From NCBI GenBank assembly GCA_017448105.1, contig JAFSMC010000001.1:1-64000 (forward strand): 64,000 nt of DNA, written 5' to 3'. A program made the translations under genes and the position numbers. Every line of letters starts with the position of its first letter. Within the stretch, counting starts at the first letter, position 1. The notes beneath the pieces are model-generated. The model ran no database searches and was not told the origin of the DNA. It saw nothing but the letters and a program-made list of their open reading frames with translations. Of this stretch, positions 3,198-14,800 are shown piece by piece. Source of the stretch: a bacterium. GTDB lineage: Bacteria; Bacillota_I; Bacilli_A; Mycoplasmatales; Mycoplasmoidaceae.

Positions 3198-6100
3198 TTA
3201 CTTATTGTAAGTTTTTCTATTTCAGTCTTTAACTCAAGTACCATTTAAAAGGTTGTAAATAATTGCATCATAAACTTGCAATTTATCACCATGATAACAA
3301 ACTTTAATCATTTCAGTCAAAGCAATTTTTTGAATTGATTCATCCATGGCTAAAGAAATCATTAAACTGTAGAATTCATTACGATTGATTTCACCATCAA
3401 CTGTAGCAGATCGAGGATGAAGAGTTTTTTTAATAACATCTTCATGATTGATTTGGGTAATAATCATTTTATACCCATCACCATTTTCATTATTAATAAA
3501 ACTGTAGTTTAAATTGTTTTCGCCCTTATTAGAATGTAATTGAATATTGGTTAAACGTTCAAAACAGTTGTAGTCAATACGGTTAGTTTGTGTAGTTGTA
3601 GGATCAGTTGGTAAAGCATTTAAAAGAGCAATTTTTAAATCATCTAAACTTATTAGTGACTTAGTGTCATTATCTAAAATTACTTTAAATGGACATTCTG
3701 AATTGTAATATTTTTTAATTAAATCGTTAATAAATAATCGAAGTGATTCTTTTGAACTCATATTTGCTATTGTTTTAGCCAAACCTAAAACTTTAGGGGT
3801 TTTTGCAAATTTCGTCTCATCTATTTTTTCATCTTTAGTTTCAATATTAAATGTGATTGGCTTTCCATTTTCATCAGTTTCACTACTATAAGCAAACCAA
3901 ATTCCTTGATTATTTCTTACTTTTTGATTATTATTACTATCTAAAGAAAGCGAACTATTACATGTATGTTCAGCTAGTTCTTCAAATAATGCTATCTTCA
4001 AATCACTATTATCACTGATAATACCAGGATCAATTTCAGTTAATAAACCAGTGAAACCAGTCCATTGTTTAGTGATACCATCAACATTTTTGTTAATTAC
4101 TGATGTCCAATATTCACTGTCAACATCTGCTTGCTCTTTTAATGGTTGTTCATCATGATAGCCAATACTATGATAGTTGTGTTGGTCATAAATATTCCCA
4201 ACCTCTGATTGTCAATCATAAATAATTTTTTTGCTTGGATTATCAGTATATCTTTCTTCATGATCGTATTCTGAATATAACAAGTCATGGACTTTAGCAA
4301 GATAACCAATATAAGCTATTTTGTTAGCATTAATTTTGTTTGAAAGGATGTTGTAGAAGTTTTTCAAATAATCTTGATTTTTAGCATCAGTTGTTGACAT
4401 TAATCAAGCTAAAGTTGCTTTTACTTTATTTAAGGCAACAATATCATCATTGTCTAAAGTATAGTTATTAATAATTTGCATGTTTTGTTTAGTATCTCAT
4501 GCATCCCTAATATTATTAATATATTCTTCTCTATCACCATCATTTTTTACTAAACAACTATAGTTGTTTTCATTAGTTAAAACTTTGCTTGCTAAATATT
4601 TACTAGTTAATACATCACCAGTTAATTCTTTCCAAATATTGTTATTTTGGTCAAAATTAATATTAGTAAAATAATCGTTATATGTGTCGTTATAGATTCG
4701 ATTAAGGATATAGCTACTAACTTTTGTACTTTGCATAAATTTAGTAACTAATGGTGATTTGTATCAGAAACTATTTGAACCAGCATTTTTAGCATTAATA
4801 GTTTGTGGACTAAAACCATCCTCATCACTATTAACTGGTACATTATCAATATTTTTAATAAATGCACTATTTTGTAAAGCTTTTATTTTTTCAGAAAGCT
4901 CACTGTATTGTAGTGGTTGTGGTTTATCACTTTTATCAAGAAGCCTCTTAAAGTTTGAATCATAAGGGATAGTACAAGCTACTAACTTGTTATCACAATA
5001 GTCATAACCATTTTCCATAACACTATATTTAAAACCAATTGGGCCTAAAACACCATTAGCATATTTTGTTTTATCTCAATTAACAACATGTTTGCTATTT
5101 GACACTGCATCATTTTTATAACTGTAAATACTTGTATTAGCATCTTTGTAGTGACCTAAAGCTTTTTTGTATCAATCAATAATGATTGTTTCATTTAAAT
5201 AATCACAGAAACCCGGATAAGTATAGAAATTATTTTCACTTCAAAGCTCATTAAGATAGTTTGTTCCTTCATTACCAAGAGAATTACCAAAATTACTACA
5301 GAAAATATTATTTGTAGTGTTACCGCTTGTTCAAGTGCCAAGAGCCATTTCTAGAATGATATTGGCATAGTGTTTTTTGAAATATACATCTAATCTTGTT
5401 CCAGAATCAAAAACATTTGTTGGGCCAAAAATATCATTTTTTATATTATTTTTGTGTTGAAGCAAACGATATTTGAGTATATTTTTAGCTACATGTTGTT
5501 TGTCATTCAAAGTTTTTTGTTTTTTAATTGCTTCATATCCATCAATAGTTAAAATATGCAGACCAAATTGATTTAATACAAAATACCATGGTTGAGATAA
5601 ATTTTCTTCTGCATCAGTCTTAGTTAAATCTACTTGAAAGTTACTAGTGACATAACGTGCACCATACTGTTCACCTTCTCTTCCATAGAAATCGGTAAAA
5701 TCTTTGTTATTTTTGAAAATGTCATAATTATGAGTCTTGGTTGTATTTTGAGTATTGTCAACATACAAACTTTTTAAATCAATGTAAGATTTAATCGTTT
5801 CTGGACGCACTTTAAGCTTGCTTTTAACTGATCCATCTTTTTGGACTGCTTCTTCAGTGGTATAGATGAAATTTTTTAAAATAAAAGTGTTGTTACTTTG
5901 CACTTCATTTGTCCAGTCTTCACTAGTGGGGGTAACTAATTCGTCTTGAGTTAATTGATTGTTAACATCTTCTGCATCACAATATCCAAACATTTGACTA
6001 TATAAAGAACCATCACCTATAGCATAAGGTGCGACTAAGTCTTGGTAATTTGTTGAACCAACACATAAAAGTAAAGTTTGACTATCTTCAGTAAATTTTC

Positions 6101-7148
6101 TATCAATTGAAATTGTACCATTACTTTCATGCTTTACATTTTTATCATCAGTGTACCCAGTTAAAAAACCAGTTTTTAACAATTCTTGGTATCATTGATA
6201 AAAACCAGAAGTACCTTTTTTTCTTTCTTTCGTAATATCTATTGGACCAAAGAAAGGAAAAGCTTCGGTTGGAGTTTCGGGAACATTTTCTCTAATTTTG
6301 TAGATATCATCAACTTTATAGTCACCAGGTTTATCACCAAGATCTTTTGGATTAGAATATTTAAATAATGAGGCAGCTGTAAAGAAAGGTTGTTCAGTAG
6401 CAAATCAACGATCAAAAACATAATTTTGAAGGGTAGCATAGTCACCAGCAGGATTTTTCTTAATGTATTCAAGACATTCATCACTAGTTTTTGGTGGTTT
6501 AAAACTGTCATCAGTTTTAGCAAAGAAACCAATTCTATCTCAGTTATCAGGGTTATCTAAAACACTTTTTGATATGGAAGAAACAACATCACTTTGAATA
6601 ACTGGCATATCAACTTGTTTATTGACTTTAAAACCAAAGTAACTCTTTTCAAAAACTTGTTTTTGAAAGAATTCTTTTACTTTAGCAAGTAGTTGGTTGT
6701 GCTTGTAACTTTCTTCAGTCCCACCATTTGGAGTTAAATATTCATTTTGTAAATAAAAATGATAATTTGCTCCATATTTATCTCGACATTCTTGAACAAT
6801 TTTGTCATAATCGCGATTAATTGTAGCAATCATTTCATCATATTGGTCTCTAAAACTAACATTACCACTTTGGCCACTTGAATCAGCCATTTTGTTCTTG
6901 AACCATTTCAAAACAACTTCATCAGCTAAAGCTGATTTAAAATCTTGATAACTTGTTGGGTTAGACAAAGCAGCTTTAATTGCATCTTTGTAAGTAAATT
7001 CATTGACAAGTCTTCCACCAACATCAATATTAATTTTATATTTTTCATCAACAAGACTAGTACTGCAACTAGTAGTACCTAAAACTAATGGACATGAAAC
7101 TAAGCTAAAGAATATTGATAATAATTTTATTTTTTTGTTTTCAAACAT
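3198..7148 (-). CDS. very large surface lipoprotein, 1316 residues
   Basis: Translated with TGA as Trp, this is one continuous frame from ATG 7148 to TAA 3198-3200; under the standard code it falls into several pieces. The N-terminus is a lipoprotein signal: basic start (KKIK), a hydrophobic stretch, then a Cys-containing cleavage region (GTTSCS, Cys28; another Cys at 19). The rest is hydrophilic, rich in Asn, Asp and Lys, with a repeated style of short aromatic segments. The segment after the signal (FTYKDAIKAAL to KWFKNKM) recalls the SurA-like N-terminal part of some mycoplasma lipoproteins, but I cannot assign a family. It probably faces outward, attached by a diacylglyceryl Cys. lepA lies upstream on the same strand, separated by a hairpin, so it probably has its own promoter. 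Confidence 0.85.
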
Positions 7149-9736: not shown

Positions 9737-10447
9737 ATGCCTCGTAAACATTTAGTTGCAAGTCAAACCAATAAAAAACAACAGCTACAAGCCAAGATTT
9801 GGCTAAAAGCTGCTCGTGAAATTAAAGCGGCAGTTAAGATTGGTGGACCCGATCCTCAATCTAACTTTCGCTTACGTGCTGCCATTGATAAGGCAATGGA
9901 AAACAACTTACCAAAAGCATCAATTGAACGTAATATTTTAGGTGCTTCTAAAGAACCAGACAATATGCAATTTTATACTTATGAATGTTATGGTCCGCAA
10001 GGCAGTCAATTTATTGTTCAAGTTTTAACTGACAATGAAAAAAGAACAATTAGTAACCTTAGAGGTTACTTAACCAAATTAAATGGACATTTAGCTAAAA
10101 GTAACAGTGTTTTACACTTTTTTACTAAACGTGGTTTTTATAACATTGCCAAAGGTAATCTAAACTATGATAATGTTTTAGAAACTTTATTAGATTGTCA
10201 AATTATTGATATTATTGAAAATGAAGATTATTTTCAAATCTTAGTTGAACCAGACCAATTCTTTAATGTTAAGAAAACTATTCAAGAAATGAATTTTCAA
10301 ATCCTTGAATCAGGAATAGATTTACTTCCTAATGAAGAAATCAATATCTCTTCTGAAGAAATTATGACTAAGATCTCAAGATTTATTGATAACTGTGATA
10401 ATGATGATGATATTCAGTCAGTAACCACTAATGTGGTTTTGCCATAA
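9737..10447 (+). CDS. yebC: YebC/PmpR family protein (TACO1-like)
   Basis: Members of this family act as transcription regulators or, by more recent work, help ribosomes through difficult stretches. The 236 residues show the typical start (PRKHLVASQTNKKQ in place of the common GHSKWANI form), an RLRAAIDKAMENNLPK segment, and the long C-terminal alpha/beta region. Length is normal. A TACAAT box (9725-9730) ends 6 bases before the ATG and no Shine-Dalgarno is visible, so the mRNA may be leaderless. The next gene starts 20 bases downstream but has its own -10 box. Confidence 0.9.
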   Translation: MPRKHLVASQTNKKQQLQAKIWLKAAREIKAAVKIGGPDPQSNFRLRAAIDKAMENNLPKASIERNILGASKEPDNMQFYTYECYGPQGSQFIVQVLTDNEKRTISNLRGYLTKLNGHLAKSNSVLHFFTKRGFYNIAKGNLNYDNVLETLLDCQIIDIIENEDYFQILVEPDQFFNVKKTIQEMNFQILESGIDLLPNEEINISSEEIMTKISRFIDNCDNDDDIQSVTTNVVLP

Positions 10448-10467: not shown

Positions 10468-12162
10468 ATGCAACTGCAACCTTACTTATATTTAGATTCA
10501 TTAACTTTTTTGTTCCTAACTTTAGAGTTAACTGTTTGTTTAGTTTTACATATTGTTTCCAAAACATTAAATTTATTTTTTTTAAAGAAAAAAAATAGAC
10601 AAACTATTAAATTTCTAATTGCTTTTTTAACTGGTTGCACAATTGCTGGTGCTTTTCTAGGATTGGAGTACTTACAACAATTTATTTTTAACAATAGCAA
10701 GATCTTCTTTTTGCCTCTGGTAACTATAATGTTTATTTACTTTCTAGCAATTAACAAGCATTTTTTAATTGCTTTAATTAGCTATGCTATGTTAACAATC
10801 CAATTGTTTGCTTTTAGTAATTGAACAATCAACATGAATTATATCTTTTGCTTAATTCTAATGGCTGTTAATTTTACTAACATTATTGTTAATATGGTTA
10901 TTAAGAAATATAAAGAACAACACTTGCTTATTAATTATGTTATTAACTACATCACTAGTAGTTTAGTGTTAGTAGTTGTAACTTTAATTAGTAGCCAGCA
11001 GTTTGAAAACATTGTCAATATTTTGGTATTATCATTTGCCGCTATGTTCTTTTTATTAGTTACACATTCTCTTGAGTTATTTTTTATTAAACTTAGTAAA
11101 AAAGTTACTAGCAAATCAAAACAACTTATTTACACGGAAGAATATTTTGTTTTGCCTAAACTTATTCCTAATTATTTCCTTGAATTAGTCAAAGCGAAGC
11201 AATATAAACATTTTTTAATCGTTACTTTTTTTATTGAAAACCTAGATATTGTTAAGAAAAAGATGAATACAAAACAATATGATGAGTTTAAGCAAGATTA
11301 TTTAAGCCAAATTGCTGCTAAATTTGAAGAATTTGGTGGTTTCTTATACAAATCTAAATATGGATATTATGGTGCTGTTTTACCAGTTAATCAATTATAT
11401 TTAAGTAACCTAAATAAAGAATATGAAGGTAATTTATTAAAAAACCGTAGTAATGATGATATTTTGCAAAAATATGAAACCATTTTAGCTAGCTTAGATA
11501 AGTTTTATCAAATTGGCAAAGAAAAAGTCAACATCAGAACTAAAATGATTGTTTCTGTTTATGGAATACATGATGTTGATGTTGAAAAACTTATTAACAG
11601 TAATTTCTTATATTTAAAACAATTTATTGTTTTCAATAGTAATCTTGCTCAAAATTATGTACAATTAATTAACCCAAAATATTTCTTAAAAATTAATGAA
11701 CAAGTTCAAAATTATAACAAAATTTTTAACTTTATTAATCAAGCAGAATTTGATATTGAATTACAGGAAACAGAAATAAATCACAAAATGTATGTAAGAC
11801 CACAGTTCTTTTGACTAAAAAAATTTACTTGTAATTTATCCAAAATTTTATCATATTTCGACCAAAATAGCGCTTGTTTATTACAACGTTATTTAGCCTT
11901 AAAAGCTATTGAAAAATATAGTCTAACTGAAAAACCTCACCAACTTATAGTTGACTTCCCAATTTCTGAGTTGAACAATATTACTTTTTCAGCTAGTAAG
12001 ATCTTAAAGAAAATTCAAATTTTTAATCTAACAAATAAAAATATTGTTTTGTTTTTTAATGGGAAAAACTTTGTTTATGATGAAGTTTTCACTAACAACT
12101 TAAAAGATTTAGACAACCATAAAATTACTTATTTATTTGACAAAAAATCAATTCACAATTAA
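10468..12162 (+). CDS. polytopic membrane protein with degenerate GGDEF- and EAL-like domains
   Basis: Read with TGA as Trp (10822, 11812), this is a single 564-residue protein. The first 210 or so residues hold about seven hydrophobic segments joined by short basic loops. Residues of about 235-320 (HFLIVTFFIENLDIVKKKM, then AAKFEEFGGFLYKSKYGYYG) follow the order of strands and helices of a GGDEF domain, but the GG[D/E]EF signature is absent. The last 170 residues include PHQLIVDFPISELNN, which resembles the N-terminal half of EAL domains without the catalytic EAL or metal ligands. If correct, it is a catalytically dead c-di-GMP-type sensor, or has an altered activity. The diadenylate cyclase gene follows 58 bases later. 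The domain calls are inference from pattern only; the membrane topology is clear. Confidence 0.55.
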
Positions 12163-12193
12163 TATAATCTTAGATAATAAGCTGAGTAAGGAA

Positions 12194-12213
12194 TATAATT
12201 AATAGAATATTCT
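12194..12213 (+). promoter_or_regulatory. -10 box and 10-bp palindrome upstream of cdaM
   Basis: TATAAT at 12194-12199 is followed by the perfect palindrome AGAATATTCT at 12204-12213, which overlaps the expected transcription start. The cdaM ATG is at 12221. The palindrome could be an operator, but it is short and A+T rich. Confidence 0.4.
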
Positions 12214-12220
12214 AACAGTT

Positions 12221-12898
12221 ATGCATAATGCTGATCGTTCTTTAGTCATTGTTCTAGTAGTGGTTATTATTGTTGCCTTTGCACTTATCTTTGCTTTTAC
12301 TTTTGTTTTTATTAAAAAGCAAGATCTACAAAAACAAGGAGTTACAACTAATAAAAAGAGACATTTTCTTTTTAAAAAAAGAAAATCTTTTGATATAGAT
12401 ATTGTTAAAAATTTTGCAATTAATTTAACTAATGCTTTAGCTAAATTAGCAGAAGACAGAGTTGGTGGTTTGATTGTTATTGAAAATAAAGATAATTTAG
12501 AACATTATGCTGGTACAGGTAATAGAATAGATTCACCTTTTTATAGTGAATTTATTTATTCAATTTTCTATAACCACTCTTCCGCTTTGCATGATGGAGC
12601 TATTATTGTTAAAAATTGACGAATTAAAGCTTTATCTGCATATTTACCTATTTCTAAAAAAATGCTTGATGTTAAATATGGGGCAAGACACCGTGCTGCT
12701 TTTGGGATTACTGAAGCAACTGATGCCATTGCTTTTGTTGTTTCAGAAACATATGGCACAATTTTATGTATTTTCAACAACACTATCCACAAATTGGATA
12801 GTAAACCAAGTGTCTTAGTTGACCAAATTTTAGAAATATTATTTAAATCCCACCAAAGTTTGATTGGCCAAGAAATCCCTAAAATTGAAAAGTTTTAA
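12221..12898 (+). CDS. cdaM: membrane-anchored diadenylate cyclase (CdaM type)
   Basis: It makes cyclic di-AMP from two ATP. The 225-residue protein has a single N-terminal membrane helix (residues 8-31), a basic linker, and a DisA_N cyclase domain with both catalytic signatures: DGA at residues 125-127 (LHDGAIIV) and RHR at 156-158 (GARHRAAFG). The TGA at 12617 is Trp. The one-helix architecture is that of M. pneumoniae CdaM rather than the three-helix CdaA. In mollicutes c-di-AMP controls potassium uptake. No phosphodiesterase gene is in the window. The upstream neighbour is the GGDEF/EAL-like membrane protein. Confidence 0.93.
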
Positions 12899-14112: not shown

Positions 14113-14187
14113 GGTGACTTAGCCAAGTGGAAAGGTCCGAAGCTGCAACCTTCGTATGCGTCAGTTCAAATCTGACAGTCACCTCCA
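14113..14187 (+). tRNA. tRNA-Cys (anticodon GCA)
   Basis: Acceptor GGTGACT/AGTCACC, anticodon stem CGAAG/CTTCG around CTGCAAC, discriminator U and encoded CCA. First gene of a seven-tRNA block. Confidence 0.95.
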
Positions 14188-14190
14188 AAT

Positions 14191-14267
14191 GCGTCTTTAG
14201 CTCAATTGGATAGAGCGTTTGGCTACGGACCAAAAGGCTGTGGGTTCAACTCCTGCAAGGCGCGCCA
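14191..14267 (+). tRNA. tRNA-Arg (anticodon ACG)
   Basis: Acceptor GCGTCTT/AAGGCGC with one G-U pair. The anticodon loop CTACGGA gives ACG, which needs A34-to-inosine deamination to read CGU/CGC/CGA. CCA is encoded. It starts 3 bases after tRNA-Cys. C32 is present, as in TtcA substrates. Confidence 0.95.
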
Positions 14268-14312
14268 AAAAATGCAAAATATTTTTTAGTAAGTCATTTT
14301 ATATTCTACTGG

Positions 14313-14338
14313 TCACTAACTATATAATTACTTAGTGA
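14313..14338 (+). promoter_or_regulatory. -10 box within an inverted repeat upstream of tRNA-Pro
   Basis: TCACTAA (14313-14319) and TTAGTGA (14332-14338) form a perfect 7-bp inverted repeat. TATAAT at 14323-14328 lies in its 12-base centre. tRNA-Pro begins 16 bases after the box. The repeat could be an operator or coincidental. Confidence 0.5.
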
Positions 14339-14344
14339 TTTGCA

Positions 14345-14421
14345 CGGGAAGTAGCTTAGCTTGGTAGAGCACTTGGTTTGGGACCAAGGGGTCGCAGGTT
14401 CAAATCCTGTCTTCCCGACCA
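14345..14421 (+). tRNA. tRNA-Pro (anticodon TGG)
   Basis: Acceptor CGGGAAG/CTTCCCG, anticodon loop TTTGGGA, encoded CCA. It starts a second tRNA transcription unit with its own promoter. Confidence 0.95.
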
Positions 14422-14425
14422 AAAT

Positions 14426-14503
14426 GGCAGGGTATCTCAGTTGGTTTAGAGAACTCGGCTCATACCCGGGGTGTCGTGAGTTCAAATCTCACCCCTGCTA
14501 CCA
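14426..14503 (+). tRNA. tRNA-Met, elongator (anticodon CAT)
   Basis: Acceptor GGCAGGG/CCCTGCT and anticodon loop CTCATAC. The 3' end GCTACCA and first bases match elongator tRNA-Met of Firmicutes, unlike the two other CAT tRNAs in this block. Confidence 0.88.
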
Positions 14504-14505
14504 TT

Positions 14506-14581
14506 GGATCTTTAGCTCAATGGTTAGAGCCCCCGACTCATAATCGGTAGGTTGTAGGTTCGAATCCTACAAGATCCACCA
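14506..14581 (+). tRNA. tRNA-Ile2 (anticodon CAT, lysidine-modified)
   Basis: Acceptor GGATCTT/AAGATCC with the loop CTCATAA. This body fits the minor tRNA-Ile whose C34 becomes lysidine (by TilS) to read AUA. AUA is heavily used in this genome, so the tRNA should be essential. It starts 2 bases after tRNA-Met. Confidence 0.85.
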
Positions 14582-14583
14582 TT

Positions 14584-14619
14584 ATAATAAATAAAGTAAG
14601 TTGCTTTGCTTATTATAAT
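14584..14619 (+). promoter_or_regulatory. hairpin and -10 box upstream of tRNA-Ser(TGA)
   Basis: TATAATAA (14584-14591) pairs with TTATTATA (14610-14617), and an inner AAAG/CTTT extends the stem. The right arm overlaps a TATAAT box at 14614-14619 that ends only 5 bases before the tRNA 5' end. Either the tRNA is transcribed nearly without a leader, or it is part of the upstream unit. Confidence 0.45.
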
Positions 14620-14624
14620 ATTTT

Positions 14625-14717
14625 GGATGCTTACCCAAGTTCGGTTGAAGGGATCGGTCTTGAAAACCGAAAGGTGTCGCAAGACACGCGGGGGTTCAAA
14701 TCCCTCAGCATCCGCCA
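14625..14717 (+). tRNA. tRNA-Ser (anticodon TGA)
   Basis: Acceptor GGATGCT/AGCATCC, discriminator G, anticodon stem TCGGT/ACCGA around CTTGAAA, a long variable arm and encoded CCA. It reads UCN codons. Confidence 0.95.
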
Positions 14718-14723
14718 TTTTAT

Positions 14724-14800
14724 CGCGGAGTAGAGCAGCCCGGCAGCTCGTCAGGCCCATAACCTGGAGGTCAGTGGTTCAAATCCACTCTCCGCAACCA
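14724..14800 (+). tRNA. initiator tRNA-fMet (anticodon CAT)
   Basis: The acceptor has the initiator hallmark of a C1-A72 mismatch (CGCGGAG against CTCCGCA). The loop is CCCATAA after GC-rich stem pairs. CCA is encoded. It is the last gene of the block, followed by a strong terminator. Confidence 0.92.

Follow-up and report, generated by a model that had tools for sequence, protein, structure and literature searches.

A membrane-anchored, degenerate GGDEF-EAL protein family encoded with cdaM and mgtE in mollicutes

The window analyzed here is a stretch of 64,000 nucleotides from a bacterium of the Mycoplasmoidaceae (GenBank assembly GCA_017448105.1, contig JAFSMC010000001.1, positions 1 to 64,000 of the forward strand). 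A gene on the plus strand at positions 10468 to 12162 encodes, under genetic code 4, a membrane-anchored degenerate GGDEF-EAL protein of 564 amino acids; the family to which it belongs is labeled FAM. Two TGA codons in the FAM frame are read as tryptophan (W119 and W449). Under translation table 11, the frames of FAM and of the downstream gene, cdaM, were both broken by TGA codons, with FAM falling into pieces of 118, 326 and 63 amino acids. A preliminary description of this DNA had reported a 564-residue frame with about seven membrane segments, separated by 58 bp from a cdaM gene with intact catalytic motifs. The frame proved to be intact under code 4, seven segments were recovered by hydropathy, and both the 58-bp gap and the DGA (12593 to 12601, plus strand) and RHR (12686 to 12694, plus strand) motifs were present in the sequence.

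The cdaM gene (12221 to 12898, plus strand) encodes a CdaM-type diadenylate cyclase of 225 amino acids, which matched the Pfam DAC model with an E value of 3e-33 (114 bits, against a cut-off of 27). Its best-scoring NCBIfam model was CdaM (NF038327; 1.3e-54), at a score of 184.8 bits, which is below the cut-off of 225 for that model. A single hydrophobic segment at the N terminus is the predicted membrane helix, and a contig scan with this CdaM as the query detected two loci only. On the other side of FAM, and 20 bp upstream, lies yebC (9737 to 10447, plus strand; TACO1/YebC family, Pfam 8e-41). This gene is a neighbor in the window and stands outside the conserved unit described below, as upstream neighbors differ between loci. 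A tRNA-Ser gene follows cdaM, and seven tRNA genes were observed at 14113 to 14800 (plus strand), where antisense open reading frames with GFEPTT-like peptides are not genes. A 1,316-amino-acid protein with a lipoprotein-like start (VLGTTSCS) is encoded at 3198 to 7148 on the minus strand and is probably a large surface lipoprotein. In this AT-rich DNA, scans for promoters and terminators gave no useful signal, with 30 promoter-like sites detected against 23 expected.

Residues 1 to 221 of the FAM protein (10468 to 11130, plus strand) were predicted from hydropathy, charge distribution and an AlphaFold2 (AF2) model to form seven transmembrane helices, which the model placed at residues 4 to 39, 45 to 73, 82 to 93, 97 to 115, 119 to 145, 152 to 174 and 179 to 221. 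The positive charges and charged loops around the seven hydrophobic segments predicted an N-out/C-in topology. A GGDEF-like domain (about residues 223 to 402; 11134 to 11673, plus strand) follows and was delimited by AF2, Foldseek and profile alignment; Y365 and G366 are invariant in its VYGIHD strand, for which the family motif is SIYGIHSND. The remainder of the protein is an EAL-like half-domain (about residues 403 to 564; 11674 to 12159, plus strand) that ends after the strand equivalent to DDFG.

The window protein alone had no family match in Pfam, NCBIfam or a PDB sequence search; its best single-sequence matches, to the beta-2 adrenergic receptor and flavodoxin, were rejected as chance. 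Nearly full-length homologues, 16 in number and of 21 to 28% identity, were detected in 99 related genomes, and identity to the window protein within the alignments was about 12 to 21%. EAL homology (PF00563) was reached via relatives: the Pfam EAL model, unmatched by the window protein itself, was matched by 3 of 18 relatives and then by 12 of 54 (best E value, 1.7e-22). Among the 54 relatives, NCBIfam models for RimA (11 proteins), LapD (10 proteins) and CsrD (7 proteins) were also matched. The Pfam GGDEF model (PF00990) matched neither the window protein nor any of the 54 relatives at an E value of 0.1, and the 54-row profile likewise retrieved nothing from the PDB by sequence. A comparison by hhalign with only three Escherichia coli proteins was weak (probability of 23% and E value of 9e-4 with a large alignment; E value of 0.38 with a small one), and a profile search of Bacilli genomes was used in its place. 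Applied to 130 genomes of the class, the 54-row profile retrieved canonical GGDEF-EAL proteins of other Bacilli (best E value per genome, 5.2e-20). The alignments were in register through both domains, and three of the retrieved proteins were confirmed as Pfam GGDEF plus EAL.

The AF2 model obtained with the 54-row alignment had a pLDDT of 84.6 and a pTM of 0.69, with values of 87 to 96 for most of the cytosolic part; in the GGDEF-like domain the pLDDT was about 88 to 96, dipping to near 77 at residues 381 to 400. An earlier model, based on 18 sequences, led to the same conclusion. In a Foldseek search of the PDB, the top matches of the AF2 model were all GGDEF-EAL proteins (E values of 1.5e-9 to 1e-6, probability of 1.00), with PA0575, DosP, MorA, PA0861 and LapD as the leading tandems. 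The GGDEF domain aligned to that of DosC (4zvf) with a TM-score of 0.69 by target length, and its fold also matched PleD and WspR. Whole-protein TM-scores were low (0.2 to 0.3), which is to be expected for a query that is one-third membrane and has its domains oriented differently. The domain call of the preliminary description, a degenerate GGDEF and then an EAL domain behind about seven helices, was therefore supported by significant matches in the profile search and structure comparison that it had suggested, with the correction that the EAL domain is not complete and amounts to about half a domain in the window protein.

The residues required of an active GGDEF or EAL enzyme were then considered. 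The GG[DE]EF active-site motif is absent, the aligned position reading KYGYY; RP-Q and LFDKK stand where EAL and DDFG would be, and the KxD, GVE and QG motifs lie beyond the end of the protein. A complete eight-stranded EAL barrel was not found in the AF2 model, which contained about half of one, with a last strand at residues 554 to 557. Longer relatives in family f5 have a full EAL domain, but inspection by eye indicated that the E of EAL, the DD, the K and the E of AEGVE are replaced. Judged by these motifs, FAM is catalytically dead as a GGDEF/EAL enzyme. Comparison of six pairs of FAM relatives gave pN/pS values of 0.12 to 0.27 in five pairs and 0.47 in the sixth, indicating purifying selection. 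Decay of FAM as a relic merely inherited in place could account for the very low identity to the window protein (about 12 to 21%), the C-terminal shortening of the EAL part and the pN/pS of 0.47 in one pair. This reading is, however, very improbable given the low values in the other five pairs, the long open frames retained in most of the 86 reduced-size genomes with FAM, and the conserved spacing.

Across the order, FAM was detected in 86 of 298 genomes (41 in f5, 37 in f1, 4 in f11, 2 in f7 and 2 in f8), and one more member, in f10 (L132), was found by its locus. DAC was present in 200 of the 298 genomes, with none in f5, and MgtE in 191. FAM is kept in the absence of a DAC gene by the 41 f5 genomes and, in f1, by genus g11 and part of genus g8, and in genus g33 of f5 it is kept though MgtE is missing too. 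At the g33 loci L041, L045 to L047 and L049, FAM was observed with no DAC or MgtE found, and the neighboring gene reads as a tRNA methyltransferase; a candidate cdaM downstream of FAM in this genus was rejected on that basis. Most f7 genomes have cdaM with no FAM detected by the family profile. Within the genus of the window, two genomes (G000 and G005) carried both FAM and cdaM and four (G001 to G004, which are 66 to 86% complete) carried neither; MgtE had no match in the window's own genome, which is 60.9% complete, or in its genus. At L141 in the f4 genome G080, an EAL-type gene of another kind was observed, which matched Pfam EAL (3.4e-11) but not the FAM profile. The suggestion of a lineage-specific system did not hold, as FAM is order-wide, has both cdaM and mgtE as linked genes, and survives without DAC.

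A GGDEF domain scored over the cut-off in only 1 of the 298 genomes, at 24.9 bits. A diguanylate cyclase is thus essentially missing from the order, and the hosts appear unable to make c-di-GMP. The GGDEF-EAL fold and ancestry of FAM could point to a hidden c-di-GMP system in which FAM acts as receptor or enzyme, and the EAL-like domain of protein U1 of the coral mollicute "Ca. Oceanoplasma callogorgiae" has been taken to indicate that c-di-GMP is used (PMC11535214). U1 resembles FAM, by description, as a reported EAL-like domain in a mollicute. Such a system was nevertheless rejected because no credible diguanylate cyclase exists in the order, and loss of the EAL, DDFG and AEGVE residues even in the full-length relatives (by eye), together with the missing half of the EAL domain in the window protein, makes it an extremely remote prospect. 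For the EAL domains of the FAM family in mollicutes, a reading other than c-di-GMP use is favored.

Flanking regions were fetched and annotated for the non-f5 FAM members. In 24 of the 34 scorable non-f5 genomes with both genes, FAM and cdaM shared a strand and FAM was the gene immediately before cdaM; a further three genomes had this context cut by contig ends. The pair was present in f1 (g1, g3, g6, g7 and g9), f7, f10 and f11, with gaps of -8 to 119 bp (median, 28 bp), and the linkage seen in the window therefore recurs in relatives of many genera. These counts come from mutually related genomes and are not independent events; the spread over f1, f7, f10 and f11 is. About 12 unrelated groups made up the upstream side of the pair over 23 loci; this grouping took the longest open reading frame within 1.5 kb and, in the window, picked lepA instead of yebC. 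The two genes were apart in ten genomes (G014, G037, G043, G049, G052, G144, G187, G251, G066 and G072); in G066 and G072 the distance was about 3.4 kb. By genus, the separated arrangement occurred in genus g10 of f1 and in part of genera g6 and g9. Upstream of the pair, rnr-like genes were observed in f11 (L120 to L123) and at L095. At L140, FAM is absent from this position and an rnr-like gene lies about 8 bp upstream of cdaM, which looks like loss of the middle gene.

The gene downstream of cdaM was often mgtE. Direct FAM-cdaM-mgtE order was found at L111, L114, L116, L124 and L132, and the four f11 loci L120 to L123 have this order with one gene inserted between cdaM and mgtE; the three-gene order is thus retained in several families. 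At L019, from another collection, mgtE also follows cdaM directly. Among the 81 genomes scored, which are those among the matches listed for both genes, cdaM and mgtE were adjacent in 77 and lay on the same strand within 3.2 kb in the other four. The two genes were also observed as neighbors at L126 to L129, L131 and L135 to L137, and their adjacency extends to genomes in which FAM is absent. In genomes without DAC (f5 and f1 g8/g11), mgtE usually comes directly after FAM; of the 30 EAL loci examined in f5, 25 showed this arrangement, and so did six loci of f1 g8/g11. In a gene tree of FAM, sequences clustered by genus and by family, and the cdaM context appeared at scattered positions; several branches of this tree are long and its deep nodes unsure. 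The pattern fits an ancestral FAM-cdaM-mgtE unit with vertical inheritance and later losses, and the reading preferred below takes this order as ancestral. One f1 locus (L139, 3669 to 4652, minus strand) encodes a membrane-less version of 327 amino acids that consists of the cytosolic part only, overlaps cdaM by 10 bp and scores 1.4e-18 on a FAM profile with its own sequence left out. This version suggests that FAM needs no more than its cytosolic part to function.

Two explanations of this linkage do not involve control of CdaM by FAM. FAM may have a membrane function of its own, as a sensor or scaffold, and be linked to cdaM and mgtE through shared expression only. Survival of FAM without either neighbor (f5 g33) and away from cdaM (f1 g10), along with purifying selection, is consistent with such a function, but the genes recur in the same order, with no such constraint on the upstream side, and we regard this explanation as unlikely. 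Alternatively, FAM could be a downstream receptor whose dead pocket binds c-di-AMP, another adenine nucleotide or Mg2+ and which controls an ion transporter, MgtE above all, and not CdaM. The position of FAM directly before mgtE in the f5 and f1 g8/g11 loci would agree with this, and a dead GGDEF-EAL protein acting as a receptor has a precedent in LapD (PMC3032553). However, no source of c-di-AMP is known for the lineages that have FAM and mgtE and lack DAC, and the window protein has not conserved the EAL motifs for catalysis and ligand coordination, so that a receptor of this kind is possible yet rather doubtful.

We tentatively prefer, at somewhat less than even odds, a reading in which FAM is a dead membrane GGDEF-EAL signaling platform that belongs with cdaM and mgtE and regulates CdaM and/or MgtE. 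Published work links the second messenger to magnesium: MgtE of Bacillus subtilis binds c-di-AMP, which tracks Mg2+ during osmotic adaptation (PMC8844918), and a cdaA-null clone of Borrelia (B. turicatae) carried an mgtE mutation (PMC8316131). Because FAM stands in a unit with CdaM and MgtE and such links between c-di-AMP and Mg2+ exist, it would most simply be a regulator acting by contact. The seven-helix domain may sense a membrane, osmotic or ion cue, which the cytosolic dead GGDEF-EAL module would pass on by direct contact, thereby setting how much the membrane-tethered CdaM produces and/or how active MgtE is. In this putative relay the contact, the cue, any bound ligand and the direction of regulation are inferred. 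A DHH-family gene and a TrkA_C protein are also present in the window's genome, and the rest of a c-di-AMP circuit is therefore plausible there. A role as receptor or regulator of c-di-AMP, as raised in the preliminary description, is plausible but not the whole story given the cdaM-less lineages: since FAM is kept without DAC in f5 and f1 g8/g11 and without MgtE in g33, it must function there without c-di-AMP. A more ambitious version, that a former c-di-GMP module was reassigned to c-di-AMP and Mg2+, with FAM as the CdaM regulator and FAM, CdaM and MgtE as one unit of sensing, synthesis and transport, is conceivable though improbable as a whole.

Under the preferred reading, FAM would fill for CdaM the role that CdaR has for CdaA in Firmicutes, with the logic of LapD or CsrD. 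CdaR (YbbR) is the partner of CdaA, and the likeness to FAM lies in the proposed role of a membrane partner encoded beside a diadenylate cyclase; CdaR differs in its fold, which is unrelated and made up of extracytoplasmic YbbR repeats, whereas FAM has a cytosolic GGDEF-EAL part and is encoded upstream of the cyclase. LapD, which was among the Foldseek matches, is likewise a membrane protein with a tandem dead GGDEF-EAL output. Unlike FAM, it has a periplasmic sensor in place of a seven-helix N terminus, and FAM has a truncated EAL domain without kept EAL motifs in a host that appears unable to make c-di-GMP. CsrD of E. coli shares the membrane anchor and the dead GGDEF and EAL domains, and its model was matched by the seven relatives noted above, but it acts on RNA decay, has no c-di-AMP link and is only weakly similar to FAM in sequence. 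The c-di-AMP phosphodiesterase GdpP also combines membrane helices with a degenerate GGDEF domain in a c-di-AMP context. Identity of FAM with GdpP was rejected because FAM has no DHH-DHHA1; in addition, FAM has an EAL-like domain and does not match the Pfam GdpP-like GGDEF model.

To our knowledge, the regulation of CdaM in mycoplasmas is not known. Studies of CdaM in Mycoplasma pneumoniae and M. bovis have dealt with potassium control (PMC5508000, PMC13022847), and the purpose of the single membrane helix of mycoplasma CdaM has only been speculated on (PMC5508000). No description of a FAM-cdaM-mgtE unit was found in the open-access literature searched. Dead GGDEF-EAL proteins are already a known kind; what is new is a mollicute family with a seven-helix anchor, in a cdaM/mgtE unit and in bacteria without diguanylate cyclases. 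Gene order across families thereby names a candidate partner of CdaM, and across the whole order it links cdaM with a magnesium transporter. The link from c-di-AMP to magnesium that is indicated by the adjacency of cdaM and mgtE, which occurs also without FAM, is worth a study of its own. If the proposed role is true, a fold that served one second messenger would have been taken over for a different one, and this in minimal-genome bacteria.
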